NCBI RefSeq assembly: GCF_003574835.2
Contig: NZ_CP063196.1
Coordinates: 4,278,001 to 4,342,000 of the forward strand
Length of the DNA stretch: 64,000 nucleotides
Source of the DNA: Thermobifida halotolerans
Lineage (GTDB): Bacteria; Actinomycetota; Actinomycetes; Streptosporangiales; Streptosporangiaceae
Direction of reading: 5' to 3'
Below, piece by piece: positions 23,086 through 52,901 of the stretch (positions within the stretch are counted from its first letter, which is position 1; the number at the start of each line of letters is the position of its first letter). Position numbers and translations under genes: made by a program. Below the pieces are notes generated by a model. It searched no databases and had not been told where the DNA came from. It worked only from the letters and a program-made list of their open reading frames with translations.

Positions 23086-23263
23086 CCGGGGAGGCTCAGG
23101 ACGGTTCCGTCCCGCCCCGCCCCTGGTCGCAGCCCCTCTCGGAGCGGGGCGTTCGGCCCCTCACGGGGGAGTGCCGGCGGCCCCGCTCGAACCCGTGACG
23201 GTTGCCCGGCGTACCCGTGGGTAGCGACGACGGGCAGCGGAGCAGAGAGTGGAAGGGACAGCG

Positions 23264-26696: not shown

Positions 26697-27491
26697 TCAC
26701 CAGGGCAGCGGCCTCCGCAGGGCGTCCAGATGGGCGCGCCACCGCTGTGCCCGCCGCTCGGCTCCCGGACGCACCGGGCTTCCGACCCACTCGGTCACCA
26801 CGCGGATCCCGTGGAGCGCGTTCACCAGCCAGGTCTCGCATCCGTGCAGTCGGGACGGGGTCGCGTTCCGGGGGCGGACCGCGACCCCGAGGTCGTGGGC
26901 GTGCTCGACGAGCAGCCCGGCGGTGACGCTGGGCAGGACGTCCAGGTCGGGGGACGGGACACAGAGGTCGTCCCCCTCCCACCACAGCAGCGCACTGGTC
27001 GTCGACTCGGTCAGCACACCGCTTTCCGTGGTCAGCAGCGCGTCGTCGGCTCCGCCCCGGATCGCCTGCTCACGCACCTCCGCCAGCGCCGACAGGTCCG
27101 GCCCCTTCACCCGGGGGTGCTCGCGCGGGTCGGCGCCGTCCCAGCACAGGACACGGACGCGGGTGCCGCGGGTCGGCGCCGGGCGGAGGAGCAGGTCCAG
27201 GCGGGGCCGCTCCCCGCCGGTCAGCTCGACCCGGGGAAACCAGTCGCCCTGCCGGGGCAGCGCGGCGACCATGTCCGCCCAGAACCCGTCAAGGGTCCGC
27301 CGGTCGAGTCCGCCCCGCTCGGCGCATGCCCGGCCGAACCGGGACCGGTGCCGTTCGATGGCCCGGACCTCGCCGTCCGCCACGAGCCAGGAGTCGGCGG
27401 CGACGACGGGCAGCCCGTGGTCCTTCTCCTCCCGCAGGCCCGTGTCGGGGGACCAGGACAGGCGCCGGGAGAGCGCGATGTGCGGCGCCAT
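26697..27491 (-). CDS. pabC: 4-amino-4-deoxychorismate lyase (PabC-like)
   Basis: A 264-residue class IV aminotransferase-fold protein. Lys129 in HPRVKGPDLSAL fits the pyridoxal-phosphate lysine, and ESGVLTESTTSALLWW with LPSVTAGLLVEHA match the cofactor-binding blocks. In this family PabC removes pyruvate from aminodeoxychorismate to give 4-aminobenzoate; D-amino-acid or branched-chain transaminases are alternatives, but the PabAB gene in the same operon makes the lyase role likely. ATG 27491 lies two bases after the stop of the flavin monooxygenase gene. It is the last gene of the leftward block. Confidence 0.8.
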   Translation of the reverse strand: MAPHIALSRRLSWSPDTGLREEKDHGLPVVAADSWLVADGEVRAIERHRSRFGRACAERGGLDRRTLDGFWADMVAALPRQGDWFPRVELTGGERPRLDLLLRPAPTRGTRVRVLCWDGADPREHPRVKGPDLSALAEVREQAIRGGADDALLTTESGVLTESTTSALLWWEGDDLCVPSPDLDVLPSVTAGLLVEHAHDLGVAVRPRNATPSRLHGCETWLVNALHGIRVVTEWVGSPVRPGAERRAQRWRAHLDALRRPLPW

Positions 27492-27493
27492 GG

Positions 27494-28723
27494 TCAGTAC
27501 CGTCCGCCCGGGTTGGTGGCGGCCCCGGTGCGGGGGCCGTAGGGCGCGTACTCCAGCCAGGCGCCGCACGCCGGGACCAGGGGGGCCAGCCGGGCCGCCA
27601 CCGACTGCCCGAGTCGGCGTGTGCGGCTTCTGGGCCGCAGGTGGTCCAGTGCCACACCGGCCGCCCTGCTGTTGAAGACCGCCGCCTCACGGCGCTGGTG
27701 CGCGAAGCGGTCGACGGCGGTCTCCCGGGTGCCGGGCTGTTCGAGTGCCTCGGTGACCGCCGAGGCCGCGGCCACCGCGTCGGCGATCCCGCTGTTCAGC
27801 CCGCGGGCTCCGAACGGCGGGAAGAGGTGGCAGGACTCGCCGACCAGCAGCACCCGCCGGTTCCGGTCGGTGAACGCCTCGGCGACCACCTTGAGGAACC
27901 GGTACCGGGACACCCACAGCAGGCGGTCGGCGTACCTGGCGGGGACCACGCGCGCCATCCACCGGCGGACCGCGTCCTCGCTCGCGTACTCGTCGGGATC
28001 GTCGTCGTCCTTGCACTGGAGGTCGAGTTGGAAGCCGCCCGCGAACGGCACCCTCATCACGCTTCGTCCGCCGAGGCCGGGATGCTCGTAGTGGAAGACG
28101 CGCTCCAGCGGAAGCGGATCCGCCGCGTCCTCCTCGACGTCCACCACGACGTGGAAGGCGTTGGACCGCTCCCCCCTGAGCTCGATCCCGAGGGAGCGGC
28201 GGACCCCCGACCGGGCACCGTCGGCGGCGACCACGTAGTCGGCCCGCCACTCCGCGCCCGCCGCGGTCCTCAGTCGCACCTCCTCGGGCGTGGTCTCGAC
28301 CTCCACGACCTCGGAGTCCCAGGCGAACTCCACCCCCGCGGCGCGGCACTCGCGCATCAGGTGCCGCTCGGTCTCCACCTGGCGGAGACTGGTGAAGGGA
28401 GGCACGCTCCCCTCGGGCGGCGGCGGATAGGTCCGGCAGAAGACCTCCCGTCCCCGGTACAGGGTGCGTCTGGTCGACCAGACCACCCCGTGGTCGGCGA
28501 TGCTCCTCGCCACCTCCGGGCGGATGCGTCCGAGAAGCTGCAACGACTCCCGGTGGAGGAAGAGCGCTCTGCTCCCGGGACGGACCCGGTCCTCGGACTC
28601 GGCTTCCAGCACGGTGACCGGCAGTCCCGAGCTCCGCAGCGCCAGCGCCGCCGTGAGCCCCACCGGCCCCGCCCCGACGACCAGGACGGGACGGCGCCCT
28701 GCACTATCCAACCCAGTGTTCAT
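27494..28723 (-). CDS. FAD-dependent aromatic monooxygenase (copy 1)
   Basis: A 409-residue class A flavoprotein hydroxylase. Dinucleotide motif VLVVGAGPVGLTAALAL at the N terminus, DG motif YVVAADGARSGVRRSLG in the middle, and GESCHLFPPFGARGLNSGI in the GD-motif position, where the usual Asp is Glu. Family members hydroxylate phenols and aminobenzoates, sometimes with decarboxylation, using NAD(P)H. It is paralogous to the gene at 41.4-42.6 kb: both share RPGSRA, WVSRYRF and FPPFGARG blocks. ATG 28723 follows GAAAGGCAG. A role in hydroxylating the 4-aminobenzoate-derived unit is inferred from operon membership. Confidence 0.85.
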   Translation of the reverse strand: MNTGLDSAGRRPVLVVGAGPVGLTAALALRSSGLPVTVLEAESEDRVRPGSRALFLHRESLQLLGRIRPEVARSIADHGVVWSTRRTLYRGREVFCRTYPPPPEGSVPPFTSLRQVETERHLMRECRAAGVEFAWDSEVVEVETTPEEVRLRTAAGAEWRADYVVAADGARSGVRRSLGIELRGERSNAFHVVVDVEEDAADPLPLERVFHYEHPGLGGRSVMRVPFAGGFQLDLQCKDDDDPDEYASEDAVRRWMARVVPARYADRLLWVSRYRFLKVVAEAFTDRNRRVLLVGESCHLFPPFGARGLNSGIADAVAAASAVTEALEQPGTRETAVDRFAHQRREAAVFNSRAAGVALDHLRPRSRTRRLGQSVAARLAPLVPACGAWLEYAPYGPRTGAATNPGGRY

Positions 28724-28793
28724 GTCTGCCTTTCTCACGCGGCCCTCCGGTGGGGTCCGGGAGGGAGGACGGCCCCTCCCTCCCGGACCGCGG

Positions 28794-30392
28794 TCAACCG
28801 GCCACCGTCTCCCGGTCGATGACGGGAAGGGTCCCCTCCTCGAACATCCTGCGGATCTGGACCCGCTGGATCTTCCACGTCGACGTGCGCGGCAGGTCGG
28901 TGAACCGCACCTGGACCGGCTCGGCCAGGGGCGGCAGACCGTGGACGGCCTCCTTCCAGCGCTCCGTGTCGAGGGGCGCGTCCCGACGGGTGGCCACGAC
29001 GGGGACGGGCTCACCGGAGGGGGAGGCGACGATCACGACCTCCAGCAGCTCGTCCAGCCGGGACAGCAGCACGTCCTCCAGTTCGAGGTTGCTGTCGACG
29101 CTGTCGATCTGGTCGATGTCGCGGTCGGTCAGGAAGAGCATCCCCCACCGGTTGAGGTAGCCCATGTCGCCCAGGCGCCACCAGGAACCGTTGAGCTGGC
29201 CCCGGTAGCGCTCGTCCTCCCCGAGGTAGGTGAGCACCCGGCCGCGGCTGCGCACCTCCAGGTGGCCGGTGCGTCCTCTGCGCACGGGCCTGCCGTCCGA
29301 TCCGACGACCCGGACCCTGATGAAGCCGGGGAGGGGGATTCCGACGCAGCGGCCGTCCGTGGTCTGCGCGCTCTTGGACGTGTACCACCATCCCGAGATC
29401 GGACCGGTCTCACTCTGCCCGTAGAGCTGCACCATCAGCGGGTTCTTCCGGCGGGAGGCGCCCAGCAGCCGCTGGATGGTGCGCGGGTGGATGGCGTCGA
29501 AGGTGGTGCTGTAGTAGCGGACGCTGGCGAGGGGCGCCCCGGGGGCGTCGACCAGGTCCTCCCACTGGATGAAGTTGTTGGGATGGGTCTCGACCAGTCC
29601 GGGCCGGGTGCGGGTGAAGATCGGTCCGACGGAGTCGGGTTCGGGGTCGACCAGGATGTCCATCGGGTTGCCGTAGTTGACGAACACTCCCAGGGAGTGG
29701 AAGAAGCGGGAGTGGACGAAGGACATGCACAGCGCCACCCGCTCCCGCCCGCGCACCGGCCAGGCGATGGCCTGCTGGGGCAGCAGTCGGTGGAAGAGGG
29801 TCTGCGCGGTGTGCACCATGAGCTTGGAGACGCCGGTCGTCCCGGAGGTGTGGGTGATGAGCGCCGGCTGGCTCGGGTGCAGCCGCACCGGGGGGCGGCG
29901 GGGGGCGGCGTCCAGGTCGGTCAGGGAGCGGCCGGAGGCGTGTGCCCTCGTCCCGGCGAGGAGCACGCCCGAGGTCAGCTCGGACACGGCCACGCCCCGC
30001 AGGTCCCCGTCGAGCTTGTCCGCGTCGGTGACCAGCCAGGGGCGGTCCAGCCGCCGCAGGAGTTCGTCGACGATCTCCCCGCCCAGCGCGGGGGACAGCG
30101 GAACCGGGACGGCGCCGATCCGGGCGGCGGCGCACACGGTCAGGGATATGTCGAAGTTCGCGCCCTTGTAGACCGCGATCCTCTCCGTGGGGCGGACTCC
30201 CGCCTCCCAGAGGCGGGCCGCGAGGTCGTCGATGATGTCGGCGAGGTCCACGTAGTTCAGGTCGGTCCCGCGCTCGGGGAAGGTGTCGAGCGGCCTGTCC
30301 AGGGTGACGGGGACGCCGCCGTGGCGGGCCGCCGCCCTCTCGAAGAGCAGGCCGAGGAAGAAGGCGCGTTCGGGGAGGATTCTCTGCAGCAT
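28794..30392 (-). CDS. Acyl/aryl-AMP ligase (ANL superfamily)
   Basis: A 532-residue adenylate-forming enzyme. P-loop ITHTSGTTGVSKLMVH, then LYGQSETGPISGWW, hinge region FLTDRDIDQIDSVDSN, and the C-terminal catalytic lysine in TSTWKIQR. It begins MLQRILPERAFFLGLLFERA. The full two-domain architecture fits a CoA ligase or an AMP ligase that charges a carrier protein or amine; no carrier protein is seen in the cluster. ATG 30392 is chosen by homology-like N terminus; only a weak AGGAC precedes it. It differs clearly from the neighbouring benzoate-CoA-ligase-like protein, so two different acids, or two steps, may be activated. Confidence 0.8.
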   Translation of the reverse strand: MLQRILPERAFFLGLLFERAAARHGGVPVTLDRPLDTFPERGTDLNYVDLADIIDDLAARLWEAGVRPTERIAVYKGANFDISLTVCAAARIGAVPVPLSPALGGEIVDELLRRLDRPWLVTDADKLDGDLRGVAVSELTSGVLLAGTRAHASGRSLTDLDAAPRRPPVRLHPSQPALITHTSGTTGVSKLMVHTAQTLFHRLLPQQAIAWPVRGRERVALCMSFVHSRFFHSLGVFVNYGNPMDILVDPEPDSVGPIFTRTRPGLVETHPNNFIQWEDLVDAPGAPLASVRYYSTTFDAIHPRTIQRLLGASRRKNPLMVQLYGQSETGPISGWWYTSKSAQTTDGRCVGIPLPGFIRVRVVGSDGRPVRRGRTGHLEVRSRGRVLTYLGEDERYRGQLNGSWWRLGDMGYLNRWGMLFLTDRDIDQIDSVDSNLELEDVLLSRLDELLEVVIVASPSGEPVPVVATRRDAPLDTERWKEAVHGLPPLAEPVQVRFTDLPRTSTWKIQRVQIRRMFEEGTLPVIDRETVAG

Positions 30393-30457
30393 GTCGGTCC
30401 TAGTCCGGTAGTCGTCTCGTCGGGGAGGGGGAGGGGAAGTCCGGGGGCCGGTACCTG

Positions 30458-31924
30458 TCACCACGTGCCCTGGCGGACCCGGAAGCGCTGGATCTTCCCG
30501 GTCGCGGTACGCGGAAGCGCGGCGACCACCTCGACGCTCCGGGGCACCTTGAACGCGGCGAGTTCGGCTCTGGCCCGGCTGATCAGTTCGGTGGCGAGTG
30601 TCTCGGGGGAGGGCGACGACGGTTCGGGGACGACGAACGCGCGGAGTCTGCTCGCGCCCCGCCCGTCGGTGACGCAGGCGACGGCCACCTCCTTCACGCC
30701 TGGGTGGGCGCCCAGGACGTGCTCGATCTCCAGCGGGGAGACGGTGATCCCGCCGACCATCTCCAGGTCGTCCGTACGCCCCAGGTGGGTGTAGGTCCCA
30801 TCCGGGTTGCGCACCGCCCGGTCCCGGGTGGCCAGCCAGCCGTCGACCAGGGTCTTCGCGGTTTCCTCGGGGCGGTTCAGGTACTCGGCCATCACGCTCG
30901 GGCCGCGCGCCCACAGTTCGCCCTCCTCGCCGTCGCGGACCCGGTTGCCGGCCTTGTCGCGCACCTGGAGTTCGAATCCCCGGACGGGCCTGCCGATCGT
31001 CCCCGGCGTGTCGGAGTCGATCCCGTTGGCGCACATGGCGTGTCCGGCCTCGGTCGATCCCAACTGGTCGAGGACGGGGACGCCCAGGAACCCGGTGAAC
31101 CGCTCGTGGAAGGGAAGGGTGAGCTTCTCACCCGCCGAGACGGCCGCTCTGAGGCTCGCGAAGGCGGACGGGTCGGTCTCGGCGGCCAGGTTTCCGTAGG
31201 CGGACGGCACCCCGTACAGGACGGAGACGCCGTGCCGCTCCACCAGTTCGGCCACCAGCGCGGGTTTGGGGCGTTCGGGGGTGAGCACCGCCGATCCGCC
31301 CGAGAACAGGGGGAAGACGAAGGCGTTGCCGAACCCGTAGGCGAAGAAGAGCTTGGAGATGGAGAGGGTGACGTCCTCGGGCCGCAGGCCCAGCCGCGGC
31401 TCGCCGAACGCCGCGTGGTAGAAGGAGGGGTCGCTGTGCCGGTGGACCGCGCCCTTCGGCCGCCCCGTGGTTCCGGAGGTGTACTGGACGTACAGCGGGG
31501 TGTCCCCGCTGACGTCGAGTGCGGGGCCGGGACTGTCGCGCCGTGCCGCGTCGACCAGTTCCGCGCCGCGCAGCACCGTGACACCGGTGAACCGCTCGGC
31601 GGTCTCCTCCCCCGCCACGACGTGGGTGACCCGCGCGTCGGCCACGATGAACTCGTGGTCGCCCTTCGGCAGGGCGGGGTTGGTCAGGACCGCGGTCGCT
31701 CCGAGCCGCGCGGTCGCGAGGAAGGCGACGGCCCAGGCGATCCCGTCGGGGAGGGCCAGGAGCACCCGGGTTCCCGCGGCCACCCCCCGGCCCGCCAGCA
31801 CGGTGGCCGCTCGGGCCGCCAGGTCGTGCACCTCGCCGTGGGTCCAGACGTGGTCTCCCTCCAGGAAGGCCGGACGCGACCACCAACGGCGCGCACGGGC
31901 CTCCAGGTCCGCGGAGACGTTCAC
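30458..31924 (-). CDS. Benzoate-CoA ligase-like enzyme
   Basis: A 488-residue ANL enzyme with VQYTSGTTGRPKGAVH (P-loop), DQLGSTEAGHAMCAN, HLGRTDDLEMVGGITVSP (hinge and motif A8) and LPRTATGKIQRFRVR with the catalytic Lys. Overall pattern, including SISKLFFAYGFGNAFVFPLF, is that of benzoate/4-hydroxybenzoate-CoA ligases. Likely reaction: ATP-dependent thioesterification of an aryl acid such as 4-aminobenzoate or 4-hydroxybenzoate, both of which this cluster can probably make. GTG 31924 is preceded by AGGAG with seven-base spacing. It lies between PabAB and the second ligase in the same operon. Confidence 0.83.
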   Translation of the reverse strand: MNVSADLEARARRWWSRPAFLEGDHVWTHGEVHDLAARAATVLAGRGVAAGTRVLLALPDGIAWAVAFLATARLGATAVLTNPALPKGDHEFIVADARVTHVVAGEETAERFTGVTVLRGAELVDAARRDSPGPALDVSGDTPLYVQYTSGTTGRPKGAVHRHSDPSFYHAAFGEPRLGLRPEDVTLSISKLFFAYGFGNAFVFPLFSGGSAVLTPERPKPALVAELVERHGVSVLYGVPSAYGNLAAETDPSAFASLRAAVSAGEKLTLPFHERFTGFLGVPVLDQLGSTEAGHAMCANGIDSDTPGTIGRPVRGFELQVRDKAGNRVRDGEEGELWARGPSVMAEYLNRPEETAKTLVDGWLATRDRAVRNPDGTYTHLGRTDDLEMVGGITVSPLEIEHVLGAHPGVKEVAVACVTDGRGASRLRAFVVPEPSSPSPETLATELISRARAELAAFKVPRSVEVVAALPRTATGKIQRFRVRQGTW

Positions 31925-32030
31925 CGTGGTTCTCCTCTCGTGTGGGCCGCGGGGGACGGTTCGGTCGGGGACGGGCCGTGCGGCACCGCGCACCGGAGGG
32001 AGGAAGCACCGCTCCGGTTCCCGCGCGGGC

Positions 32031-34124
32031 TCATCGGCGCACCGCCTCTGAGGTCCGGTAGGCCCGCAGGGGGGCGTTGGCCTTGAGCAGCATCTCCTCG
32101 TACTCCTCCTGTGGGTCGGAGTCGAGGACGATCGCGCCGCCCGCGCCGATCCGCCAGCGGTCCCCGATCCGCACGGCCGTGCGGATGACGATGTTGAGGT
32201 CGGCCGCCCCGTTGCAGGAGAGGTAGCCGATGGAGCCGGAGTAGACTCCGCGCGCCTCGGTCTCCAGCTCGTCGATGATCTCCATGGTCCGGAGCTTGGG
32301 CGCCCCCGTCATGGACCCGCCGGGGAAGCAGGCGCGGACGCAGTCGACCGCGTCGGTCTCCGTGCGCAGCCGCCCCCGGATCGTCGAGACCAACTGGTGG
32401 ACGGTGGTGTAGGACTCGGTGGCCATGAGGCGGGGGACGTGGACGCTGCCCACCTCGCACACGCGTCCCAGGTCGTTGCGGAGGAGGTCCACGATCATCA
32501 GGTTCTCCGCGCGCGTCTTGGCGCTCGACGTGAGCGAGTCCCTCAGCCGCGCGTCCTCCTCCGGGGTGGCTCCTCGGGGGGCGGTGCCCTTGATGGGCTT
32601 GGTCTCCACACCGCCGTCGCGGGTGATGGACAGGAACCGCTCGGGCGAGGAGCAGGCCACCTCCAGCTCCTCCCCGAGGCGCAGGTAGGCGCCGTAGGGC
32701 GCCGGGTTGACCGCGCGCAGGCGGGTGTAGAACTGGTAGCCGTCCTCGACGGCGGGCAGCCACACCGAGTTGGTCAGGCAGATCTCGTAGCTCTCCCCCT
32801 CCAGGAGTTTGCTCTGGCACACGCCGATGTCCGCGACGTAGCGGTCCCGGCCGACCGTGAGATGGGCCTCGACGTCCACCGGAGCCGCGGCGCCGTCCGC
32901 GGCGGGCCGCGGCTCCGGTGCGGACCGGATCAGGAACTGCACCACGGAGGCGGTCTTCTCCAGCCAGTCGACGGCCTGGGCGACGCTGTCGGCGGTCCCG
33001 TCGCTCATAGCGACGAGATAGGTGGCGTCCTCCTGGTGGTCGACCGCGACGAACCGGTCCGCGAACAGCCACACGGCGTCCGGCGCCGGTGACCGGTGCC
33101 GGTTCGGGGATCCGCAGTCCGCCTTCGTCTCGTAGCCGAAGTACCCCACGTACCCGCAGGTGAAATCGAACGGGAGCTCGGTGTTGTCCACGCGGCGCCG
33201 TGCGAGCTCCCGCCCGAGGTAGTCGAAGACGGTCCCGAGGACCCGGCGAGGCGCCTCCCCGGTCCGGGTGACCTCCACCTCCTGGTCCTCGACGCGGTAC
33301 CGGACGGTCTCCGCCAACGGTCCGGCGGTGTCGCCGAGGAAGGAGAACCTGGACCAGCCGGGTTCGATCCGGGCGCTGTCCAGCCAGAAGGACGGCTCCG
33401 GGGAGTCGGCGTACAGGCGGGAGAACAGCGCCTGCGTGTCGACGGCCGCCTCGACCACCCGGACGTGCAACTGGGTGTGCTCCGTTGTCCTCCCCGGCCG
33501 CTCCGTCCCGGCCGTCCCGCTCCCGCCGCGGCGGCCGGAGACCGTGTTGTGAGCGGCGGCGAGCCTGCGGAAGTTCTCCAGCAGGCGGTGGCCGTGGTCC
33601 GTCTCGATGGACTCGGGGTGGAACTGCACGCCCCAGAGGGGCCGGGTCCGGTGCCTGAGCGCCATCAGGGTGCCGTCCTCGGCCCAGGCGACCGCCTCCA
33701 GCGATTCGGGCAGCGGTTCGGCGACGGCGAGCGAGTGGTACCGGACCGCGGTGAACTCCTGGGGGATGCCCTCGAACAGTCCCTCCCCCGTGTGGGTGAC
33801 CCGGGTCAGGTAGCCGTGCCGGGCCTCCTTGGCGGGGAGCACGGCCGCTCCCTCACTGGCGGCGATGCCCTGGTGGCCGAGGCAGACCCCCAGCACCGGA
33901 ACGGAGGCCCTGGCGATCACCGCCGCGGAGACACCGAAGTCCCGGGGGCGCTCGGGGTGTCCCGGGCCGGGTGAGACGACGATGCTGTCGAACCTGTCGA
34001 AGTCGAGGTCGGTGTCGGAGGCGTCGTTGGTGACGACGGTCGGCTCCTCGCCGTTGACCTCGGCGATCATCTGGAACAGGTTGTAGGTGTAGGAGTCGTA
34101 GTTGTCGATCAGGAGGGTTCTCAT
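32031..34124 (-). CDS. pabAB: Fused aminodeoxychorismate synthase PabA-PabB
   Basis: A 697-residue fusion. Residues 1-190 are a class I glutamine amidotransferase with VSPGPG, Cys81 in LGVCLGHQG and the HPES pair at 169-171. A Gly/Ser/Thr-rich linker leads into the chorismate-binding domain (about 210-695), with EICLTNSVWLP and PGGSMTGAPKLRTMEII. PIKGT near 509 carries the Lys typical of PabB-type 4-amination; anthranilate synthases have Ala here. Amidotransferase-first order is that of antibiotic-cluster PabAB, while PhzE is reversed. The enzyme makes 4-amino-4-deoxychorismate from chorismate and glutamine. ATG 34124 lies 16 bases after the DAHP synthase stop. Confidence 0.92.
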   Translation of the reverse strand: MRTLLIDNYDSYTYNLFQMIAEVNGEEPTVVTNDASDTDLDFDRFDSIVVSPGPGHPERPRDFGVSAAVIARASVPVLGVCLGHQGIAASEGAAVLPAKEARHGYLTRVTHTGEGLFEGIPQEFTAVRYHSLAVAEPLPESLEAVAWAEDGTLMALRHRTRPLWGVQFHPESIETDHGHRLLENFRRLAAAHNTVSGRRGGSGTAGTERPGRTTEHTQLHVRVVEAAVDTQALFSRLYADSPEPSFWLDSARIEPGWSRFSFLGDTAGPLAETVRYRVEDQEVEVTRTGEAPRRVLGTVFDYLGRELARRRVDNTELPFDFTCGYVGYFGYETKADCGSPNRHRSPAPDAVWLFADRFVAVDHQEDATYLVAMSDGTADSVAQAVDWLEKTASVVQFLIRSAPEPRPAADGAAAPVDVEAHLTVGRDRYVADIGVCQSKLLEGESYEICLTNSVWLPAVEDGYQFYTRLRAVNPAPYGAYLRLGEELEVACSSPERFLSITRDGGVETKPIKGTAPRGATPEEDARLRDSLTSSAKTRAENLMIVDLLRNDLGRVCEVGSVHVPRLMATESYTTVHQLVSTIRGRLRTETDAVDCVRACFPGGSMTGAPKLRTMEIIDELETEARGVYSGSIGYLSCNGAADLNIVIRTAVRIGDRWRIGAGGAIVLDSDPQEEYEEMLLKANAPLRAYRTSEAVRR

Positions 34125-34140
34125 CGCGAAGCTCTCTTCT

Positions 34141-35592: not shown

Positions 35593-35731
35593 GGATCGGT
35601 GCTCCTATCCAGAGGAGGGCTCTTCGGTTCCGGACGCCGGTACGGTCTCGGGAGCCGGGCGCCCCGGCTCCCGGGACCGGTGACCGCGGAGCGGTCCACG
35701 AAGCGGCCGTCCTTCCTTCCCGGTGGCGGAT

Positions 35732-37108: not shown

Positions 37109-38190
37109 CAGTAGACTCCCTCGATGACCTTTGTTCCGGACCCGTCCTGGTAGGGGGCGATGTCGGCGAGGCCGTCCACCGTTCCCGCGCCGGGCTCGAC
37201 CCGGGTGGCCATGTCGCGCTCCAGGACGTTGGGGAGGAACATGTCCCTGCTGAGCAGGTGCATGAGCACCCTGCCGCGCTCCCCGTGGCCGACCTGGTCC
37301 CGGGTCTCGGGGTCGACGACCTCCACGACGGACTGGGGGAAGAAGGGCGTGAACACGCAGTGGTGGGTGTCCCCCTCCGCCCGCGGGCGCTGCGGCGCGA
37401 TCCCCATCAGGGTGTTTCCGTAGATGGCGGCCACGGCCGCGTCGGGGAAGAAGGTGTTCTCGATCTGCCACAGGGTCTCCGCGCTGACGCTCGTCCCCGC
37501 CCACAGCAGCCCGAGCAGGCGCTCGGCGACCCGCTCGTACAGCGACGTCCGGGTGCAGAGGGCCTCCAGGACCGGCGGGGTGATGAAGAGCACCCGGATG
37601 TCCTGTGAGCTGACGATCAACTCCACCTGGTCGAGGAGGTATTCGCGGTACTCGTTGGCGAGGTCGGTCCGGCCCGCGGCGAGCAGCCGCTTGACCCAGC
37701 GCGGGTCGAAGTCGACGGTGAAGCACAGGGCGCCGCGCTCCGCGGCCAGGTGTTTGACGGTGCGGCCGACGACGTGGGGGCCGGTGGGGCCGACGTGCAG
37801 CCAGTCCCCCCGGTCGGGGAAGCCGTGCTCCCGCAGCACCGCGCTGACCCAGAGGACGTTCTGGCTGCGGGAGGCGCTGTCCACCACGCGCTTGGGCGCA
37901 CCCGTCGTGCCGCCCGACTCGAACACCTCGAAGGTGTCGCCTCGGGCGCCCGCCGGGATCAGGTCCTCCGCCGCCACGGTGCGCAGGTCGTCACTGAGAT
38001 CGGGGAAGCGGCGCAGGTCGCCGATCCGCTCGACGTCGGCGATCGGGTCGAATCCCAGTTTCGCGGCTCGTTCGAGCCAGAAGGGGGACCCGGTCTCGGG
38101 GGAGAAGTGCCATCTCAGGACCTCACGCATGTAGCCGTCCGGGTCCTTGGCGGCCTCCTCCGCGGATATCCCGTTCAACAGGTTTTCCAT
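37108..38190 (-). CDS. EhpF-like aryl-adenylating protein
   Basis: A 360-residue shortened ANL protein. Motifs: SPETGSPFWLERA (30-42), ESGGTTGAPKRVVD (91-104, P-loop), GPTGPHVVGRTV and AIYGNTLMGIAPQRPR. It ends at KVIEGVY with no mobile C-terminal domain, whereas full ligases have about 500 residues. This is the architecture of EhpF and of proteins labelled phenazine antibiotic biosynthesis protein. The family activates an aromatic carboxylate to the acyl-AMP for reduction by the adjacent ALDH. No phenazine core genes are present, so the substrate is probably 4-aminobenzoate- or 4-hydroxybenzoate-derived. ATG 38190 follows GGAGGTGGAC. Confidence 0.82.
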   Translation of the reverse strand: MENLLNGISAEEAAKDPDGYMREVLRWHFSPETGSPFWLERAAKLGFDPIADVERIGDLRRFPDLSDDLRTVAAEDLIPAGARGDTFEVFESGGTTGAPKRVVDSASRSQNVLWVSAVLREHGFPDRGDWLHVGPTGPHVVGRTVKHLAAERGALCFTVDFDPRWVKRLLAAGRTDLANEYREYLLDQVELIVSSQDIRVLFITPPVLEALCTRTSLYERVAERLLGLLWAGTSVSAETLWQIENTFFPDAAVAAIYGNTLMGIAPQRPRAEGDTHHCVFTPFFPQSVVEVVDPETRDQVGHGERGRVLMHLLSRDMFLPNVLERDMATRVEPGAGTVDGLADIAPYQDGSGTKVIEGVY

Positions 38191-38408
38191 GTCCACCTCC
38201 GCATTCACTGCGTCGTCGCTGTGTGCCCGCGTTCCGGCCCCGGCCGGCGGCGCCGGTCCGGCGGGGTCCCGGTTCCGGGGTCGGGGAGCCGACCGCTCCT
38301 CGGAGAGGTCCCGGCGGTCGGCGCGGGGTGTCCGGCGCACGGGCACGCGGCGGCCGTGCGCCGGACCGGTCGGGGAGAGGTCGGGGCTGTCTCCGGGCCG
38401 CTGCCGGG

Positions 38409-39944
38409 TCAGGAGACGGACTGCTCGAAGTCGAAGAAGCCGTGGGGGTCGTACTTCTTCTTGATCCGGTGGAGCCGGTGGCGGTTGTCCCCGTAGTAGG
38501 CCTCCCGCCAGTTCTCCAGGTAGGGGTCGGTGAAGTTCTGGAGCGTGTGGCCGTTCGCGTAGGAGTCGAACACCTCGAACCCGTCGTGGAGGTGCCCGAG
38601 CACCGTCTGCTTCTCCTCCTCGGAGGCGTCCGTACTGGTGAGGCCGAAGGTGAAGGAGATGTTGAACGCGGCGGTCCGGTGGAAGAACGCGGTGTCCCGG
38701 GGATCGGTGGAGTTGACCTGTCCGCCCATGACGCGCAGCGACATGACGCGGATCTGGCCTGCGGCGCGCCCGTTCTCGAACGCTCCCAGGATGTCCTCGA
38801 CGCCGGTCTCGGGAATCGGGTCGTCGACGAGCCGGGAGCGGGTGAGCCGGAAGGCGTCCCTGGGGAGGGTCCCCTCCGGGGTGGAGCCGGTCCGGTGGCA
38901 CTGCTCGACCGTGATCTCGGAGCATCCCCACACGCGCATCATCGCGTCGCGGTAGGGCAGGTCGACCGCGGAGCGCTCCGTCGGCTGCCGGCCCGTGAGG
39001 CCGACGAGCCGGTCGAGTTCGGTGTCGAGGGTGTCCAGGCTCCCCAGGGAGGTGCCCACGAGCTGCACCAGCGGCGCCGCCCCGGGCGTGGTCGGGGCGA
39101 TGACCAGCAGGTCGGCGGCGATCTCCTCGGGCAGGTCGGTGATCCACTCCTGCAGGCCCGTGATCAGGTGGACCGCGTCGTTCCAGTGCCACACGAGCCG
39201 GTACTGGCACATCCTGGTGATCGGGACCTGGTCGAGGGTGTACTGGGTGATGATGCCGAAGTTGCCCCCGCCGCCACCGCGTACGGCCCAGAGCAGGTCG
39301 GGGCGGCGGTACTCGTTGCAGACGACGGTCCGGCCGTCGGCGAGGACCACCCGCGCGGCCCGGATGTTGTCCGAGGCGACCCCGTGCTTCCGGCTGAAGG
39401 GACCCGTGCCGCCGCCGGTGACGAAGCCCGCGGCGGCCACGGTCGGGCAGGTGCCGTTGGGCAGCGCGATGCCGTGGGGAGTCAGCGCGTCCAGTGCGTC
39501 GACGGCCTGCAGGCCCGTCTCGATCCTCGAACACGTCGCACCCACCGACACCCCCTTCATCCGGGACACGTCGATGACGAGGCCCTCGGTCGTGGAGTAT
39601 CCGGCGTTGCTGTGCCCGCCGCTCCGGGCCGCCGTCCTCAACCCGTGGTCCTGGGCGAACAGGATGCCCGTGCGGACGTCGTGCTCGTTCTCGCAGTAGA
39701 GGACGGCGGCGGGGCGGATCCTGTCGTACTCGGCGACCTGGAGCTGGATCGCCTGGTCGTAGGAGGGGTCACCGGGCAGGACGACGTCGCCGCGGACGTG
39801 GCGGCGCAGCCTGTCCCACTTGCCGCGGCGGCCTCCGCCGTGGGCGAACGCGGGGGCGGCCGCCGACGCGCCCGCTCCCCCGGTCACGGAGGCTGCGGCG
39901 ACGGCGGCACCGATACGCAGGAGACTTCTTCTGTCGATAGCCAC
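38409..39944 (-). CDS. Tat-exported berberine-bridge-type FAD oxidase
   Basis: A 511-residue PCMH-type flavoprotein. Tat signal DRRSLLRIGAAVAAASV then an Ala-rich cleavage region. RSGGHSNAGYS supplies the histidine, and NGTCPTVAAAGFVTGGGTG the cysteine, of the double covalent FAD link of berberine bridge enzymes. The C terminus (YYGDNRHRLHRIKKKYDPHG) matches BBE domains. Such oxidases dehydrogenate alcohols, amines or phenols with oxygen, producing quinoid or coupled products. Export implies that this oxidation occurs outside the cytoplasm. GTG 39944 follows AAAGGGC. It heads the leftward block, with a 780-bp promoter region upstream. Confidence 0.87.
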   Translation of the reverse strand: MAIDRRSLLRIGAAVAAASVTGGAGASAAAPAFAHGGGRRGKWDRLRRHVRGDVVLPGDPSYDQAIQLQVAEYDRIRPAAVLYCENEHDVRTGILFAQDHGLRTAARSGGHSNAGYSTTEGLVIDVSRMKGVSVGATCSRIETGLQAVDALDALTPHGIALPNGTCPTVAAAGFVTGGGTGPFSRKHGVASDNIRAARVVLADGRTVVCNEYRRPDLLWAVRGGGGGNFGIITQYTLDQVPITRMCQYRLVWHWNDAVHLITGLQEWITDLPEEIAADLLVIAPTTPGAAPLVQLVGTSLGSLDTLDTELDRLVGLTGRQPTERSAVDLPYRDAMMRVWGCSEITVEQCHRTGSTPEGTLPRDAFRLTRSRLVDDPIPETGVEDILGAFENGRAAGQIRVMSLRVMGGQVNSTDPRDTAFFHRTAAFNISFTFGLTSTDASEEEKQTVLGHLHDGFEVFDSYANGHTLQNFTDPYLENWREAYYGDNRHRLHRIKKKYDPHGFFDFEQSVS

Positions 39945-40728: not shown

Positions 40729-41175
40729 ATGGCCGGCAATCGGGTTCAAGCCGCGAAGCAGCTTCCCGACGCGTACGCGAAACTCGCCGAAATCAACGGG
40801 ATCCTCGAAGGGGTCCTCGACCAGGAGCTCTACGAACTGGTCAAGCTCCGCGCCTCGTTTCTGAACGGGTGCGCTTTCTGCGTCGACCTGCACGCGCACA
40901 CAGCGATGAAATCGGGTGAGTCGGTGCAGCGCCTTCTCCTCGTCGGGGCGTGGCGGGAGGCCGGCGACCACTTCACCGACTCCGAGCGCGCGGCTCTGGC
41001 CCTTGTCGACGAGGTGACCAGGCTCGGCGAGCACGGTGTGTCGGACGGCGTCTACGCCGAGGTCGCCAAGCACTTCTCCGAGAAGGAGACCGCCGCGTTG
41101 CTCATGGCGATCGGGCTGATCAACCTGTACAACCGTCTCGGGGTCAGCACGGAGATGAAGCCGCCCAAGCGCTGA
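40729..41175 (+). CDS. Carboxymuconolactone decarboxylase/AhpD-like protein
   Basis: A 148-residue AhpD-fold protein. LRASFLNGCAFCVDLHAH contains the CxxC-x-D-x-H redox motif of the family near residues 47-55. Members are peroxidase-linked thiol reductases or decarboxylases. ATG 40729 follows GGAGGAG. It is the only rightward gene inside the cluster and is flanked by leftward blocks, so cluster membership is likely but not proven. It might detoxify peroxide formed by the oxidase, or act on the product. Confidence 0.85.
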   Translation: MAGNRVQAAKQLPDAYAKLAEINGILEGVLDQELYELVKLRASFLNGCAFCVDLHAHTAMKSGESVQRLLLVGAWREAGDHFTDSERAALALVDEVTRLGEHGVSDGVYAEVAKHFSEKETAALLMAIGLINLYNRLGVSTEMKPPKR

Positions 41176-41201
41176 GGCGGCACCCGATCTCGTCCCGGTC
41201 G

Positions 41202-41240
41202 GAGGGGACGGCCGGGAGGAACTCCCCCGGTCGTCCCCTC
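41202..41240. terminator. Terminator hairpin after AhpD-like gene
   Basis: GAGGGGACG with extension at 41202-41218 pairs with a near-complement ending at 41240 (one G-T pair, two unpaired bases). It lies between two converging genes. Confidence 0.65.
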
Positions 41241-41320
41241 ACCGGGGTCCGCTGGTCCGGTTCTGTGGTGGGTGGCGGCTTCTCCCTGGAGGACCGGGGA
41301 GAAGACGAGGCGTTCCCGCC
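41238..41320 (+). repeat. Dispersed repeat, copy A
   Basis: The sequence from CTCACCGGGG through GGTCCGGTTCTGTGGTGGG and GGCTTCT to a GGCGTTCC block is repeated, diverged, on the minus strand at 45909-45967 and 60489-60567. All copies begin CTSACYGRGGT and are non-coding. It sits between the AhpD-like gene and the second monooxygenase. Confidence 0.65.
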
Positions 41321-41410
41321 AGGCGCCCGGCACGGCCCGCCCCGGTCGGCAGCGGGTGGGGAGGCGCCCCGGTCACGCGGCCGCACGTGAACCCCGTCAC
41401 CAGGGTTCAG

Positions 41411-42553
41411 TCAGTACCGGACCTTCCGCAGCGGGGGGCCGAACGGCGCCGAGTCGAGCCACCGCCCCGCCGGTTCCCAGAACGGGGCGAGCAGCGCGGC
41501 TCCCCTCTGGCGCAGCCGGTCCGCTCGCGTACGGGCCAGCAGGTGCGCGCACGCCGCCCCGGCGGCCCGGCAGTTCTGCCACGCGGCGGCCCGCCGGTCC
41601 CTGTCGTAGGAGCCGACGTCGCCGTCGGCCACGGCGTCCACCGCCGCGACGGCGTCGACGATCCCCGAGTTCATCCCCCGGGCTCCGAAGGGGGGAAACA
41701 GGTGGGCGGCCTCTCCGGCGAGGAGCACCCGGTGGTGGTCGTCGACGAACCTCTCCGCGACCCGCTGGTGGAAGCGGTACCGGGACACCCACGTGACCTC
41801 GTGTCCGGGGAGTACGCCCGCCACCCATCCGGCGGTGTCGTCCGCGAAGTCGGCCGCCTCCTTCTCGTCGGCGCACTGGAGGTCGACGCGCCATCCTCCC
41901 CGGAACGGGACCAGGAGCACGTTGCGTCCGCCGACGCCCGGGTGCCGGTAGTGGAACACCCGCTCGGGAGGCAGCGGGCGCGCCGCGTCGGCGACGTCCA
42001 CGACGACGAAGTCGGTCCCCGACGTCGTGCCGGTGAGGGGTGTGCCGAGGGACCTGCGCACCGCCGACCGAGGGCCGTCGGCGGCAATCACGTGGGCGGC
42101 GCGTGTCTCGCCGCCGCCCGCCACCCGCACCCGGACGCCGTCCGGCCACGGGTCGACCCCCGTGACAGGGGTGCTCCAGGCGATCCGGCCCCCAGCCTCC
42201 TCGTAGGCGCGGCGCAGCCGGTCCTCCAGCAGCGTCTGCGGAAGGCTGGTGAACGGCGGGAGGTCGGAGGCCGTCCGCCTGCCGTAGGTGCGGGCGTAGA
42301 CCTGTCTGCCCGCCCACAGCGTCCGCTTGGTGCTCCAGACCAGGCCGTCGGCGGCCAGTTCCCGTCCCAGGCCCGGCCTGAGCCGTTCGAACGTCCGCAG
42401 GGAGGCCTGGTGGACGAAGACGGCTCTGCTGCCGGGGCGGACGCGTGTCGAGGGCTCCGCCTCCAGCACGGTGACCGCCATGCCGCGGCTCGCCGCGGCG
42501 AGCCCCGCGGTGAGCCCGACAGGCCCCGCTCCGACGACGACGAGCCCGCTCAT
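41411..42553 (-). CDS. FAD-dependent aromatic monooxygenase (copy 2)
   Basis: A 380-residue class A flavin hydroxylase starting MSGLVVVGAGPVGLTAGLAA. The DG motif is HVIAADGPRSAVRRSLG and the GD-position motif is GEAAHLFPPFGARGMNSGI, again with Glu for Asp as in copy 1. The two proteins are clear paralogues but diverged, so they probably act on different substrates or steps. ATG 42553 overlaps the stop of the chorismate-lyase-like gene (ATGA), so this hydroxylase may act on the 4-hydroxybenzoate-derived unit while copy 1 acts on the 4-aminobenzoate unit. That pairing is inference. Confidence 0.85.
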   Translation of the reverse strand: MSGLVVVGAGPVGLTAGLAAASRGMAVTVLEAEPSTRVRPGSRAVFVHQASLRTFERLRPGLGRELAADGLVWSTKRTLWAGRQVYARTYGRRTASDLPPFTSLPQTLLEDRLRRAYEEAGGRIAWSTPVTGVDPWPDGVRVRVAGGGETRAAHVIAADGPRSAVRRSLGTPLTGTTSGTDFVVVDVADAARPLPPERVFHYRHPGVGGRNVLLVPFRGGWRVDLQCADEKEAADFADDTAGWVAGVLPGHEVTWVSRYRFHQRVAERFVDDHHRVLLAGEAAHLFPPFGARGMNSGIVDAVAAVDAVADGDVGSYDRDRRAAAWQNCRAAGAACAHLLARTRADRLRQRGAALLAPFWEPAGRWLDSAPFGPPLRKVRY

Positions 42554-43158
42554 GAGGCGTCGACCAGACGGGGATCGAAGCGTTCCTCGACGTAGAGCAC
42601 CGGTGCTCCGCCGGAGCGGATGACGTAGCCGCGCCAGACCGCCCTCCCCGTGCCGGCGCGCTGGGCCTCGGTCCCCCGGTGCCACGGGGAGCGGCCGGAC
42701 GCCACGAGTTCCCGCTCGTAGTCCGCCGCGTACGGCGCCAGGGTCCGCCCCAGCGGCCGGGAGAGGTCCGCCAGGGCCGCGGCCAGCCGGGGGTCGGCCG
42801 CGGCACCGGCCACGACGATGTTCCGCGAGACCGGTGCGCCGTCCGGCGCCGCGAGCTCGGAGTGGCGGACGACGACCTGCGCGTCCCGGTCCAGGCGGAG
42901 GATGTCGGCGACACTCCGGCAGACACTCGGGGCGGGGCACCGGTCCTGCCGGAGCACCCGCACCGCCAGGGGGTGCCCGGTCCGCTGCTCCAGGAACTCG
43001 GTCGTGGAGCCGGTGTGCTCGACCAGCCGCCTGGTGACCGGATCGGCGAACTCCACCGGTCCGCGTCGGGAGCACAGGTCCAGACCGCATCGCGGTGGGG
43101 CTCCTCCGGGGAGGCCGGGGCATCTTCGGCCAGCCGGCGCGGGCCGGAGACTAGCCAT
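42550..43158 (-). CDS. DUF98-type chorismate pyruvate-lyase
   Basis: A 202-residue protein resembling the chorismate lyase family of mycobacterial Rv2949c (DUF98). Family landmarks: GSTTEFLEQRTGHPLAVRVL near residue 49, the central PLGRTLAPYAADYERELV, and the closing VWRGYVIRSGGAPVLYVEE with the Glu needed for pyruvate release. Such enzymes convert chorismate to 4-hydroxybenzoate and pyruvate. The first 30 residues are low complexity, so the true start may be internal. It overlaps both neighbours by four to eight bases, consistent with a coupled operon. A regulatory UTRA-like role is an alternative, but there is no DNA-binding domain. Confidence 0.68.
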   Translation of the reverse strand: MASLRPAPAGRRCPGLPGGAPPRCGLDLCSRRGPVEFADPVTRRLVEHTGSTTEFLEQRTGHPLAVRVLRQDRCPAPSVCRSVADILRLDRDAQVVVRHSELAAPDGAPVSRNIVVAGAAADPRLAAALADLSRPLGRTLAPYAADYERELVASGRSPWHRGTEAQRAGTGRAVWRGYVIRSGGAPVLYVEERFDPRLVDAS

Positions 43159-43942
43159 CTCCGACTCCCCCTCCCGGTTCCGCGCCCGCGCGCCGGATCT
43201 GCGTGAGGTGGGCGAGAAGCTGCTCTCTCGCGTGGTCGTGGATGAAGGGCCCCCAGGAGATCCGCGCTACCCCGAGGTCGGCCAACTCCCGGACGGAGAG
43301 CCCACCGGGAAGACACAGGATGTTCACGGGGCCGGGGATCTTCCCCACGAGTTCGCCGACGGTCTCGCGGCCGGACGCGAGAATGGGGAAGACGCAGTCG
43401 GCCCCGGCCGCGAGGTAGGCCTCGGCCCGCTGGAGCGTCTCCGCGACCAGTTCCGCCTCCGGTGTTCCCCCGCCGCTGATCCTGTCGCGCAGGAAGGTGT
43501 CGATCCGGGCGTTGACCACCAGGGGGGTGTCGCCCGCCGCCGCCCGGATTCCGGCGATGCGCTCGGCCTGCTCCTCCACGTCGGCGAGGGATCCTCTCGC
43601 GTGCAGGCTGTCCTCGATGTTGCAGCCGGCGGCGCCGACCTCGGTCAGCCAGCGGACGATCTCCTCGGCCCCGAGTCCGTAGCCGCCCTCCAGGTCGACG
43701 GTGACGGGCAGCGGCACCGAACGGACGATCCGGGCGGCGGCGGCCAGCATCTCGTCCCGGGGCGCGCTCTCCCGTCCGCCGTACCCCAGCGTGGACGCGA
43801 TACCGTCGCTGGTGGTCGCCACGGCGGAGAAGCCCGCGGCCTCGGCGGCACGGGCGCCTGTCACGTCCCACACGGTGGGCAGCAGCAGAGGGCCGCTCCC
43901 ATCGCTGTGGAGTCTCCTCAGTTCCTGCGCTTTCGAATTCAT
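43151..43942 (-). CDS. PEP mutase/isocitrate lyase superfamily protein
   Basis: A 263-residue TIM-barrel protein with TTSDGIASTLGYGG, TVDLEGGYG, CNIEDS and VNARIDTFL: the Mg-binding and substrate-loop positions of the PEP mutase/isocitrate lyase family. The KKCGH cysteine motif of isocitrate and methylisocitrate lyases is missing, and the EDK motif of PEP mutase reads EDS. So neither classic reaction can be assumed; hydrolysis, decarboxylation or C-C cleavage of a keto acid is possible. ATG 43942 overlaps the regulator stop. Its presence in an operon that releases pyruvate from chorismate is suggestive only. Confidence 0.8.
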   Translation of the reverse strand: MNSKAQELRRLHSDGSGPLLLPTVWDVTGARAAEAAGFSAVATTSDGIASTLGYGGRESAPRDEMLAAAARIVRSVPLPVTVDLEGGYGLGAEEIVRWLTEVGAAGCNIEDSLHARGSLADVEEQAERIAGIRAAAGDTPLVVNARIDTFLRDRISGGGTPEAELVAETLQRAEAYLAAGADCVFPILASGRETVGELVGKIPGPVNILCLPGGLSVRELADLGVARISWGPFIHDHAREQLLAHLTQIRRAGAEPGGGVGDG

Positions 43943-45246
43943 CCGTTGAGTTTCTCCGGATTCCTGTTCACCCAGTTCGCGATCTGGATACGGGACGAGC
44001 ACTGCAGCCTGCGCATGACCTCCCGTACGTGGTTGATCGCCGTCCACTCGGCGATCCCCAGGTGTTTCGATATCTCCCGGTTGGTCAGCCCGTCCGCCAC
44101 CAGTTCGGCCACCTGTCTCTGCCGCGGGGTCAGGATGGAGGGGTGGTCGCGCATCATCGAATCCCGACGGAGGGCGACGCCTCCCCGCACGCTCCTCTCG
44201 GCCGCTTTCTCCCGAACAAAGGTACGCATGGTGTTGAGAAACGTGAACCTGGGGCGGTTCTGCGAGTCGTGGCTGGCCCGGAGGAAATTCCGCTCTATCA
44301 GCATCCGCAGGAAGTGGTCGGCCCTCTCCGAGGACTCGCCGATGATTTCGCGCGCGCCGTCGAAGGTGAATTCCTCGTGTCCGCCGAGTTGCACCAGGAT
44401 TCTTCGCGCCTCGACCGGGAGCGCACGGTAGTGCCCTTCCAGCGCCTCGCGCATACTGCTGTGGCGCAGGGACACCGAGCCCGAGCCGCTGCTGAGTATC
44501 CCGATACCGTTCCGGATGCGCCGGTGCAGCGGTTCCGCTCCCAGGATCCGCAGCAACGGGGCCGCGAACTCGATGGCCAACGGCAGCCCGTCCAGGTCGT
44601 GCAGGAGTTCGGTGACCGCCGTCCGGTACTCGGCGGTCATCCCCGAGACGCGGAAGCTGCCGGACCTCTGCGCGAGGAGCCGTGTCGAGGGGGCGGCGAA
44701 GAACTCTTCGGCGGTCGCGCCCGGCCCCTTCGGCGGCAGGGGAAGCGGCTGCAGTTCGTAGATCCGCCCCTGATAGAGGCTGACCGCCTCCCGGCTCGTC
44801 ACCAGCAGGCTGAGGTTCGGGTCGCGCGCGAGGAGCCCCGTCATGACCCGGGTGATCCCCTGGTCGGCGGAGTCGTAGTTGTCGATCAGGAGGAGCCCGC
44901 GTCGCGGGGCGCCGTCCGCCGACAGCGGCACGGGGTGCCGGTCGGCGAGTTCGGCGAACGCCCTCAGCCTCTCCTCCGAGTCGGTGGCGGAGGCGCAGTC
45001 GAAGAGGTGGACTCCCCGTGGGAAGACCTCCTCCAGGCCGTACGCCACCGCCAAGGCCAACCGGCTCTTGCCGCAGCCCACCGGACCGGTGATGACCGTC
45101 GGATCCTTCCCTGAAGCGATGCCGTGGGAAAGCTCATCCAGCTCCCTTTCGCGCCCGATCATGGGAGGAAGGGCGTCGATCAGCTTTTTCATATCACCAG
45201 ACGTCAACGGTCGCAGAACGGGGGGAAACGGATCCATCAAAGGCAC
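43939..45246 (-). CDS. NB-ARC-type ATPase with LuxR C-terminal domain (cluster regulator)
   Basis: A 435-residue regulator. Walker A is VITGPVGCGKSRLAL near residue 52, Walker B GLLLIDNYDSAD near 118, and LLVTSREAVSLY follows, the NB-ARC/STAND pattern of AfsR and LuxR-type activators. The C-terminal HTH is LTPRQRQVAELVADGLTNRE with the helix ISKHLGIAEWTAINHVREV. It heads the operon with the PEP-mutase-fold, chorismate lyase and monooxygenase genes, so it is likely to be the pathway-specific activator. The start is GTG 45246 or ATG 45237; neither has a strong ribosome binding site. Confidence 0.87.
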   Translation of the reverse strand: MPLMDPFPPVLRPLTSGDMKKLIDALPPMIGRERELDELSHGIASGKDPTVITGPVGCGKSRLALAVAYGLEEVFPRGVHLFDCASATDSEERLRAFAELADRHPVPLSADGAPRRGLLLIDNYDSADQGITRVMTGLLARDPNLSLLVTSREAVSLYQGRIYELQPLPLPPKGPGATAEEFFAAPSTRLLAQRSGSFRVSGMTAEYRTAVTELLHDLDGLPLAIEFAAPLLRILGAEPLHRRIRNGIGILSSGSGSVSLRHSSMREALEGHYRALPVEARRILVQLGGHEEFTFDGAREIIGESSERADHFLRMLIERNFLRASHDSQNRPRFTFLNTMRTFVREKAAERSVRGGVALRRDSMMRDHPSILTPRQRQVAELVADGLTNREISKHLGIAEWTAINHVREVMRRLQCSSRIQIANWVNRNPEKLNG

Positions 45247-52718: not shown

Positions 52719-52754
52719 GTCGGCTTCCTCACTCCTGCGGGTTTCGGGTACCGA

Positions 52755-52769: not shown

Positions 52770-52901
52770 CCCTGTGACCGCGGCGACTTCGCACATAAGT
52801 TGATGCGTCATCCAAATCGGATAAGGTTGATCCGTCAACAGATCCGACGTCCGAGAGCGGCGGGACCGCTTCCGGGCCGACCTCATCGGGGGCGACCACC
52901 C

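Follow-up and report, generated by a model that had tools for sequence, protein, structure and literature searches.

We found that fourteen genes in a 64,000-nucleotide stretch of the Thermobifida halotolerans genome (the window; positions 4278001-4342000 of 5.5 Mb) are a real gene set, which behaves as a specialised-metabolite cluster. They lie at 26.7-45.2 kb of the window. We see about an even chance that the cluster converts chorismate, by two branches, into a small aromatic product, with a nitrite-dependent step that forms an N-N bond, which is uncommon chemistry; the N-N step, the sites of hydroxylation, the coupling and the product are what we infer here. Genes were called by codon usage and named by searches with Pfam and NCBIfam profiles, and the result agreed with the gene list of an earlier note on this DNA. 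The enzyme families named there were confirmed by profile or PDB matches, DUF98 by fold only, and the genes named in the cluster include no polyketide synthase, nonribosomal peptide synthetase (NRPS) or terpene gene, as the note had stated. The genes are as follows.

26697..27491, minus strand: PabC-like 4-amino-4-deoxychorismate (ADC) lyase, class IV pyridoxal-phosphate fold (PF01063, 97 bits)
27494..28723, minus strand: FMO1, group-A FAD monooxygenase that goes with the 4-aminobenzoate (PABA) core (PF01494, 138 bits)
28794..30392, minus strand: ANL1, apparent sister lineage of ATP-dependent N-N-bond-forming ANL enzymes (PF00501; tree; DxxH)
30458..31993, minus strand: ANL2, benzoate-CoA-ligase-type (TIGR02262, 358.5 bits, cut-off 375; PDB 2v7b, E 1e-87)
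32031..34124, minus strand: PabAB, fused aminodeoxychorismate synthase (TIGR00553, 351.8 bits, above the cut-off of 328.4; PIKGT)
34141..35592, minus strand: class-II 3-deoxy-D-arabino-heptulosonate 7-phosphate (DAHP) synthase (PF01474, 484 bits)
35732..37108, minus strand: aldehyde dehydrogenase (ALDH)-fold acyl-AMP reductase candidate, EhpG-like by context (PF00171, 57 bits)
37108..38346, minus strand: EhpF-like small ANL enzyme (PDB 3hgu/3hgv, E 2.2e-71); start uncertain
38409..39944, minus strand: berberine bridge enzyme (BBE)-type FAD oxidase with a twin-arginine-like signal, probably exported (PF01565 and PF08031)
40729..41175, plus strand: AhpD-like protein with CxxCxxxH (PF02627, TIGR00778)
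41411..42553, minus strand: FMO2, probable FMO1 paralogue (PF01494, 144 bits)
42550..43056, reading frame possibly to 43158, minus strand: DUF98-fold chorismate lyase candidate (fold match to 2nwi; PF01947 below gathering threshold)
43151..44047, minus strand: phosphoenolpyruvate (PEP)-mutase/isocitrate lyase-fold protein, doubtful cluster member (PF13714, 240 bits)
43939..45246, minus strand: NTPase/LuxR regulator (PF00196)

The first nine genes (26697-39944) are a single minus-strand string with intergenic gaps of -1 to 139 bases, and are transcribed in the order BBE, EhpF, ALDH, DAHP synthase, PabAB, ANL2, ANL1, FMO1 and PabC. The AhpD gene is on the opposite strand, and the PEP-mutase, lyase and FMO2 genes follow downstream of the LuxR-type regulator gene. 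The FMO1 start was placed near 28723, since the GxGxxG motif is then included. EhpF homologues start nearer 38200 than the called 38346.

The earlier note had proposed a search for the same gene set in other genomes and named a lack of co-conservation as grounds for rejecting its reading; the set proved to be co-conserved. We define type A as EhpF, ALDH, DAHP synthase, PabAB, ANL2, ANL1, FMO1, PabC, BBE and FMO2. Type A is present in ten assessable genomes: that of the window, T. cellulosilytica TB100, Nocardiopsis FIRDI 009, N. lucentensis (on two contigs), and the Streptomyces genomes DH37, verrucosisporus, AJS327, goshikiensis, chumphonensis and JJ38. Among the genomes with the cluster, that of T. 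cellulosilytica is the nearest to the window's own. An eleventh locus, of NRRL B-1347 (5.2 kb), was too short to judge and stands outside this count; the genes of locus L172 were located by tblastn. Because the same genes cluster in three genera, their co-occurrence is non-random. Gene order varies among the genera and the gene set stays together. AhpD accompanies it in nine of the ten genomes, with none seen in AJS327, and its CxxCxxxH motif is kept in every locus read, including two of type C (see below). The LuxR regulator gene is found in four of the ten (Nocardiopsis copies, 47-48%), and a different helix-turn-helix protein is encoded next to FMO2 in five of the six Streptomyces type-A loci. 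The PEP-mutase gene, which the note had counted as a component, occurs in just two of the ten genomes, both Thermobifida, so its membership is doubtful.

A smaller core is more widespread. Seventy of the best 80 loci among 243 relatives (L061-L130; 68 in Streptomyces, one in Wenjunlia and one in another actinobacterium) are of type B, and since only the best 80 were kept, type B is probably larger than this. The type-B ANL1 is 54-58% identical to that of the window. All 46 type-B loci with full flanks have PabAB-ANL2-ANL1-FMO1-PabC in the same order and on the same strand, together with AhpD. An ABM-domain protein precedes PabAB in 52 of 53 loci, the cassette being usually accompanied by AhpD and an ABM/transmembrane protein. 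A gene for a DUF3050 (haem-oxygenase-like) protein stands beside the cassette in 33 of the 55 loci with enough flank, e.g. L094:4516-5295, and a PEP-mutase homologue of 41-53% identity is found in 22 of the 70. In L091:14150-17254 and similar loci, the cassette is followed by genes for a MocR-type regulator, two AhpD-like proteins and a PEP-mutase homologue. EhpF, ALDH, DAHP synthase, BBE and lyase were found in the flanks of none of the 70. Type C, seen in two genomes (L037-L040), combines the core with EhpF, ALDH, DAHP synthase, a flavin reductase, an enzyme like tryptophan halogenases and DUF3050, the gene of which overlaps ANL1 (L038:2252-3049). Since the halogenase-like and flavin reductase genes occur together (L037:18175-19944), type C likely makes a halogenated variant. 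DUF3050 had no match in the window genome in a search whose control also matched nowhere, so that its absence is likely and not proven. No function for the five-gene cassette was found in the literature searched, nor was any similar cluster, that search being without most subscription papers, bioRxiv and MIBiG.

PabAB joins a glutamine amidotransferase (GATase) to a chorismate-binding domain and carries PIKGT, which we take to be a PabAB membership motif, in all 12 loci read. The PabC-like protein has the class IV fold, the Lys of its KGPDL is kept in 12 of 12 loci, and its gene closes the PabAB cassette in all 46 full-flank type-B loci. Against its assignment, it lies below every PabC equivalog cut-off (best score 42.8 bits, cut-off 273) and matches ADC lyases in the PDB weakly. 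ANL2 scores 371 bits on the FadD22 model, under the cut-off of 1228. Family membership supports the prediction that PabAB and PabC make PABA and that the DAHP synthase supplies the shikimate pathway.

The second branch depends on the lyase. The window protein has no Pfam match at E <= 0.001, and a PF01947 search of the window genome gave no match. Compared with PF01947 it reaches E 0.032 and 14.6 bits, below the gathering threshold of 22, and this model matches two of four lyase members at E <= 10 (best E 0.0014). Its AlphaFold model (pLDDT 80.5), however, is structurally closest to AF1396, 2nwi (Pfam DUF98; E 3e-9, TM 0.75), with GntR effector domains as weaker matches to the same fold. We therefore keep the DUF98 lyase call of the earlier note as a fold assignment; it stands by predicted fold and not by sequence. 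The lyase gene is present in nine of the ten type-A genomes and was not found in AJS327, and a Glu near the C terminus is kept in all nine. The structural model supports the view that the lyase makes 4-hydroxybenzoate. The FMO2 gene is present in all ten type-A genomes; in the window it shares 4 bases with the lyase gene, and in the other loci with both genes it comes after the lyase gene. In a tree of 35 ingroup rows, whose outgroups were too distant for safe rooting, FMO1 and FMO2 formed separate neighbouring groups (support 85/91 and 85/58, respectively). With this moderate support they look like paralogues, one accompanying each branch, and this fits two similar C7 acids. One hydroxylase for each acid is the simplest reading. 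Since the 70 type-B loci hold the PABA core and no 4-hydroxybenzoate branch in their flanks, that branch looks like an add-on to the core. PabAB, PabC and the DUF98-fold lyase thus occur together in one co-conserved cluster, as the note had claimed. Its picture of a small molecule from two C7 units stood as to the two branches, and found no support as to the PEP-mutase and the roles of the ANL enzymes.

The note had listed ANL1 and ANL2 as two further ANL ligases and passed over ANL1 as the most telling gene. The two are not equivalent: ANL2 is of the benzoate-CoA-ligase type, and ANL1 appears as a sister to ANLs that form N-N bonds. The best PDB matches of ANL1 are Tri17 (98.6 bits), the "FadD" 9xb8 (97.6), and 8ztz (79.0), with FadD-1 next at 68.1; the four best chains, from the first three enzymes, all carry a DxxH motif. 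In a midpoint-rooted tree with Tri17, 8ztz, 9xb8, an AvaA6 orthologue and 22 ordinary ANLs (19 from the window genome), ANL1 and the Tri17/AvaA6 superclade separated from the ordinary ANLs with support of 100/100. DxxH in the A4 region, a superclade mark that is our own observation, was seen in all 7 ANL1 proteins and all 19 rows of the superclade, and in none of the 25 ordinary ANLs. ANL1 is therefore kin to the N-N-forming enzymes by tree and motif and lies outside the described family.

Placing ANL1 within the curated diazotase family was rejected: it scores 79 bits on NF058622 (cut-off 975), no better than ordinary-range ANLs, which reach 126 bits, and the AvaA6 orthologue (L131) scores 1061. 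Because tree and DxxH agree but this score fails, we claim ANL1 only as a sister. Several points weigh against an N-N role: besides this score, ANL1 is sister to the whole superclade and not inside any known enzyme clade, its predicted structure (pLDDT 65) is too poor for use, and the tree contained no verified amide synthetase. ANL-type amide synthetases exist, and a plain hybrid of PABA and 4-hydroxybenzoate, in which ANL1 acts as a ligase and joins two activated C7 units by an amide or ester bond, as the note implied, is an unlikely reading that still deserves weight. Two residues of adenylating enzymes, the A10 lysine and the A5 glutamate, are retained in ANL1, and the general ligase model PRK06187 gives it 123 bits against 79 for the diazotase model. 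Such a ligase, however, would not account for the grouping of ANL1 with N-N-forming enzymes by tree and DxxH, and would leave the nitrate reductase linkage unexplained.

This linkage lies outside the window and was missed in the earlier note. Assimilatory nitrate reductase (nas) genes adjoin six of the ten type-A clusters: FIRDI 009, N. lucentensis, AJS327, chumphonensis, DH37 and verrucosisporus. The linked operon is of the NarK/NasC/NasB type; NarK was not seen in chumphonensis, and NasB is past the contig end in N. lucentensis. A NarK-type transporter adjoins NasC in most linked loci. A crude regular-expression search of eight loci with nas genes found no siroheme nitrite reductase. In the first four of these genomes nas comes after PabC or after BBE and has the same orientation, with predicted starts 11 bases past BBE in S. 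chumphonensis and 259 past PabC in Nocardiopsis FIRDI 009; in DH37 and verrucosisporus it stands 3.6-3.7 kb beyond FMO2. NasC fits the assimilatory nitrate reductase model NF047855 best, at 716-766 bits against 511-546 for formate dehydrogenase. Two close NasC copies occur in DH37, verrucosisporus, chumphonensis and JJ38, the second being away from the cluster in the first three; AJS327 has one, adjacent to the cluster.

Other observations weigh against a nitrite supply by linked nas genes. The operon does not adjoin the cluster in either Thermobifida genome (the window's included), nor in goshikiensis or JJ38; in Thermobifida, assimilatory nitrate reductase is encoded elsewhere in the genome, and in goshikiensis no NasC above 38% identity was found. 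NasC was absent from the flanks of all 70 type-B loci, lies on other contigs than the cluster in the two type-C genomes, and was not found in G212, where an ANL1 homologue stands in a phenazine-like cluster. NasC itself is below the NF047855 cut-off of 1100, and the solved structures nearest to it are formate dehydrogenases. In Nocardiopsis, NasC is single-copy and present in 33 of 40 genomes; because the adjacent operon is the single nas locus of the genus, adjacency there is weaker evidence and possibly positional. An accidental linkage by insertion beside nas loci, the cluster still being a real PABA metabolite cluster, is thus a somewhat unlikely explanation that has to be taken seriously. 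It agrees with the Nocardiopsis case and with the lack of adjacency in Thermobifida, goshikiensis, JJ38, type B and type C, but not readily with the linkage in several arrangements and genera, nor with the extra NasC copies in Streptomyces and in a further genus, g30.

This genus, an independent case, emerged when 342 relatives were searched with the diazotase model. A 9xb8-like ANL was found in ten of 15 g30 genomes (354-363 bits; DxxH read in five), and all ten have two NasC genes, one of them 1.4-1.6 kb from the ANL. The five g30 genomes without it serve as controls: four carry a single NasC and the fifth lacks it. In a NasC tree, four linked g30 copies stood apart from five housekeeping copies of the genus. 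The only g30-type region read, L235 (2619-14155), combines PabAB, the 9xb8-like ANL and a nitrate reductase operon. In L234, from another genus (9440-16324), a 9xb8-like ANL stands with PabAB, chorismate mutase and a prephenate-dehydrogenase-like gene, presumably a 4-aminophenylalanine set, and with no nas. Here too there is evidence to the contrary. Since the ten genomes are close relatives, they represent one event. L235 is the only one of 12 superclade neighbourhoods read that has nas, and among seven other genomes with superclade ANLs, NasC is within 10 kb just in G027 (6.2 kb), 21-25 kb off in two, and on another contig or lacking in four. The link between nitrate reductase and superclade ANLs is not general.

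The best PDB matches of the EhpF-like protein are 3hgu and 3hgv, both EhpF. The ALDH and EhpF genes overlap by 1 base, and the catalytic Cys of the ALDH, in GVRC, is present in all 12 loci read. EhpF homology and this Cys support a role as an acid-to-aldehyde reductase pair of the EhpF/EhpG kind, the ALDH being EhpG-like by context. We take EhpF/EhpG of D-alanylgriseoluteic acid, a phenazine, and GriC/GriD of grixazone to be their counterparts. Both systems likewise have a small ANL enzyme and an ALDH-like partner encoded by overlapping genes, in a phenazine or 3-amino-4-hydroxybenzoate context, whereas that of the window is PABA/4-hydroxybenzoate. The BBE protein best matches the flavin oxidases 9p1p and 9p1o and EncM. 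Its N terminus is twin-arginine-like, with RRSLLR also present in the T. cellulosilytica and Nocardiopsis FIRDI 009 proteins, which suggests that it is probably exported.

A grixazone-like phenoxazinone dimer would also employ a reductase pair of this kind: FMO1 would give 4-amino-3-hydroxybenzoate, EhpF/ALDH would act as GriC/GriD, and the exported BBE, related to EncM and the mitomycin radical oxidase, would couple o-aminophenols oxidatively. The pair, the hydroxylase and the PABA route suit this scheme. We consider it improbable, for it needs neither the lyase nor FMO2, ANL1 and ANL2, all conserved in type A except the lyase in AJS327, and type B has the same core with no EhpF, ALDH or BBE in its flanks. 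EhpF/ALDH pairs are best known from phenazines, and homologues of about 45% occur in loci with chorismate-binding enzymes. A phenazine cluster or fragment is nevertheless very improbable, as the PabAB of the window is PabB-type with the GATase in front, and PhzF is missing there; PF02567 matched the genome at 2.05 and 4.64 Mb only, and nowhere in the cluster. Another EhpF/ALDH pair of the same genome belongs to a phenazine-like locus at 2.04 Mb (2041797-2049000), which includes a PhzF-family gene at 2048094.

In the proposed N-N pathway, the DAHP synthase would feed the shikimate pathway, and PABA (by PabAB and PabC) and 4-hydroxybenzoate (by the lyase) would be made from chorismate. FMO1 and FMO2 may hydroxylate the rings derived from PABA and 4-hydroxybenzoate, most simply at the meta position, to yield an o-aminophenol and a catechol. 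ANL2 would activate an aryl acid. ANL1 may use ATP to activate nitrite, supplied by assimilatory nitrate reductase, and couple this to the arylamine, so that a diazo or other N-N group results. The EhpF/ALDH pair would turn a carboxylate into an aldehyde, and a final oxidation outside the cell may fall to the BBE enzyme, which is probably exported. As a guess, azo coupling may join the two rings. Such a product would presumably resemble agaritine of Agaricus, a PABA-linked aryl hydrazine/diazonium compound, in its para-substituted C7 unit, reduced carboxyl carbon and N-N bond; that system is fungal.

The nearest described systems are the arylamine diazotases and the N-nitrosylase Tri17 (CreM, AvaA6, CmaA6, Aha11). 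ANL1 resembles them in the ANL fold, in DxxH (seen in Tri17 and the AvaA6 orthologue) and in its sister position, but differs in lying outside the known clade and under the NF058622 cut-off. According to PMC11705231, known members take arylamines or hydrazones as substrates together with nitrite; Tri17 attaches nitrite to hydrazones and converts anilines into diazo compounds. In the known diazo clusters of its table, nitrite comes from the aspartate-nitrosuccinate pathway (CreE/CreD), whereas six of the ten type-A clusters adjoin nitrate reductase. The crx (crexazone) cluster shares diazo-related genes and a LuxR-like regulator with our cluster, and aminohydroxybenzoate with the pathway proposed for it, but starts from 3,4-AHBA, and its abstract mentions no PABA route (PMC11429834). 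According to PMC3298696 and PMC11705231, the mgo (mangotoxin) cluster has the DUF3050 protein MgoB, as do our type-B and type-C relatives, but contains an NRPS, and MgoB is not essential there; the ham (fragin/valdiazen) cluster has the HDO protein HamA.

A broader proposal, to which we give somewhat less than an even chance, is that ANL1 is the founding member of a new ANL lineage, which activates nitrite and forms N-N bonds on PABA-derived amines, and that parts of the DxxH superclade take nitrite from a co-inherited nitrate reductase and not from the aspartate-nitrosuccinate pathway. Type A would then lead to aldehyde-bearing aryl diazo or azo compounds, and at least 70 loci, mostly of Streptomyces, would hold a sister pathway, often with a DUF3050 diiron-type protein. 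If this is true, a DxxH ANL with PabAB and nitrate reductase would be a genomic signature for N-N products missed by CreE/CreD mining, assimilatory nitrate reductase would have a dedicated role in specialised biosynthesis, and a widespread Streptomyces cassette, apparently unassigned so far, would gain its first testable function.

Other features of the window lie outside the cluster. A LysE-type exporter is encoded beside an ATP-grasp enzyme at 22432-24535, and LysE also adjoins the cluster in T. cellulosilytica. The region 4268-11767, with a helicase (ResIII/DEAD), an MrfA Zn-binding-domain protein, a 1303-aa helicase-domain protein and a lower third-position GC content, resembles an island of the mobile or defence type. 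At 52362-54539, a luciferase-like monooxygenase is fused with a hemerythrin domain.

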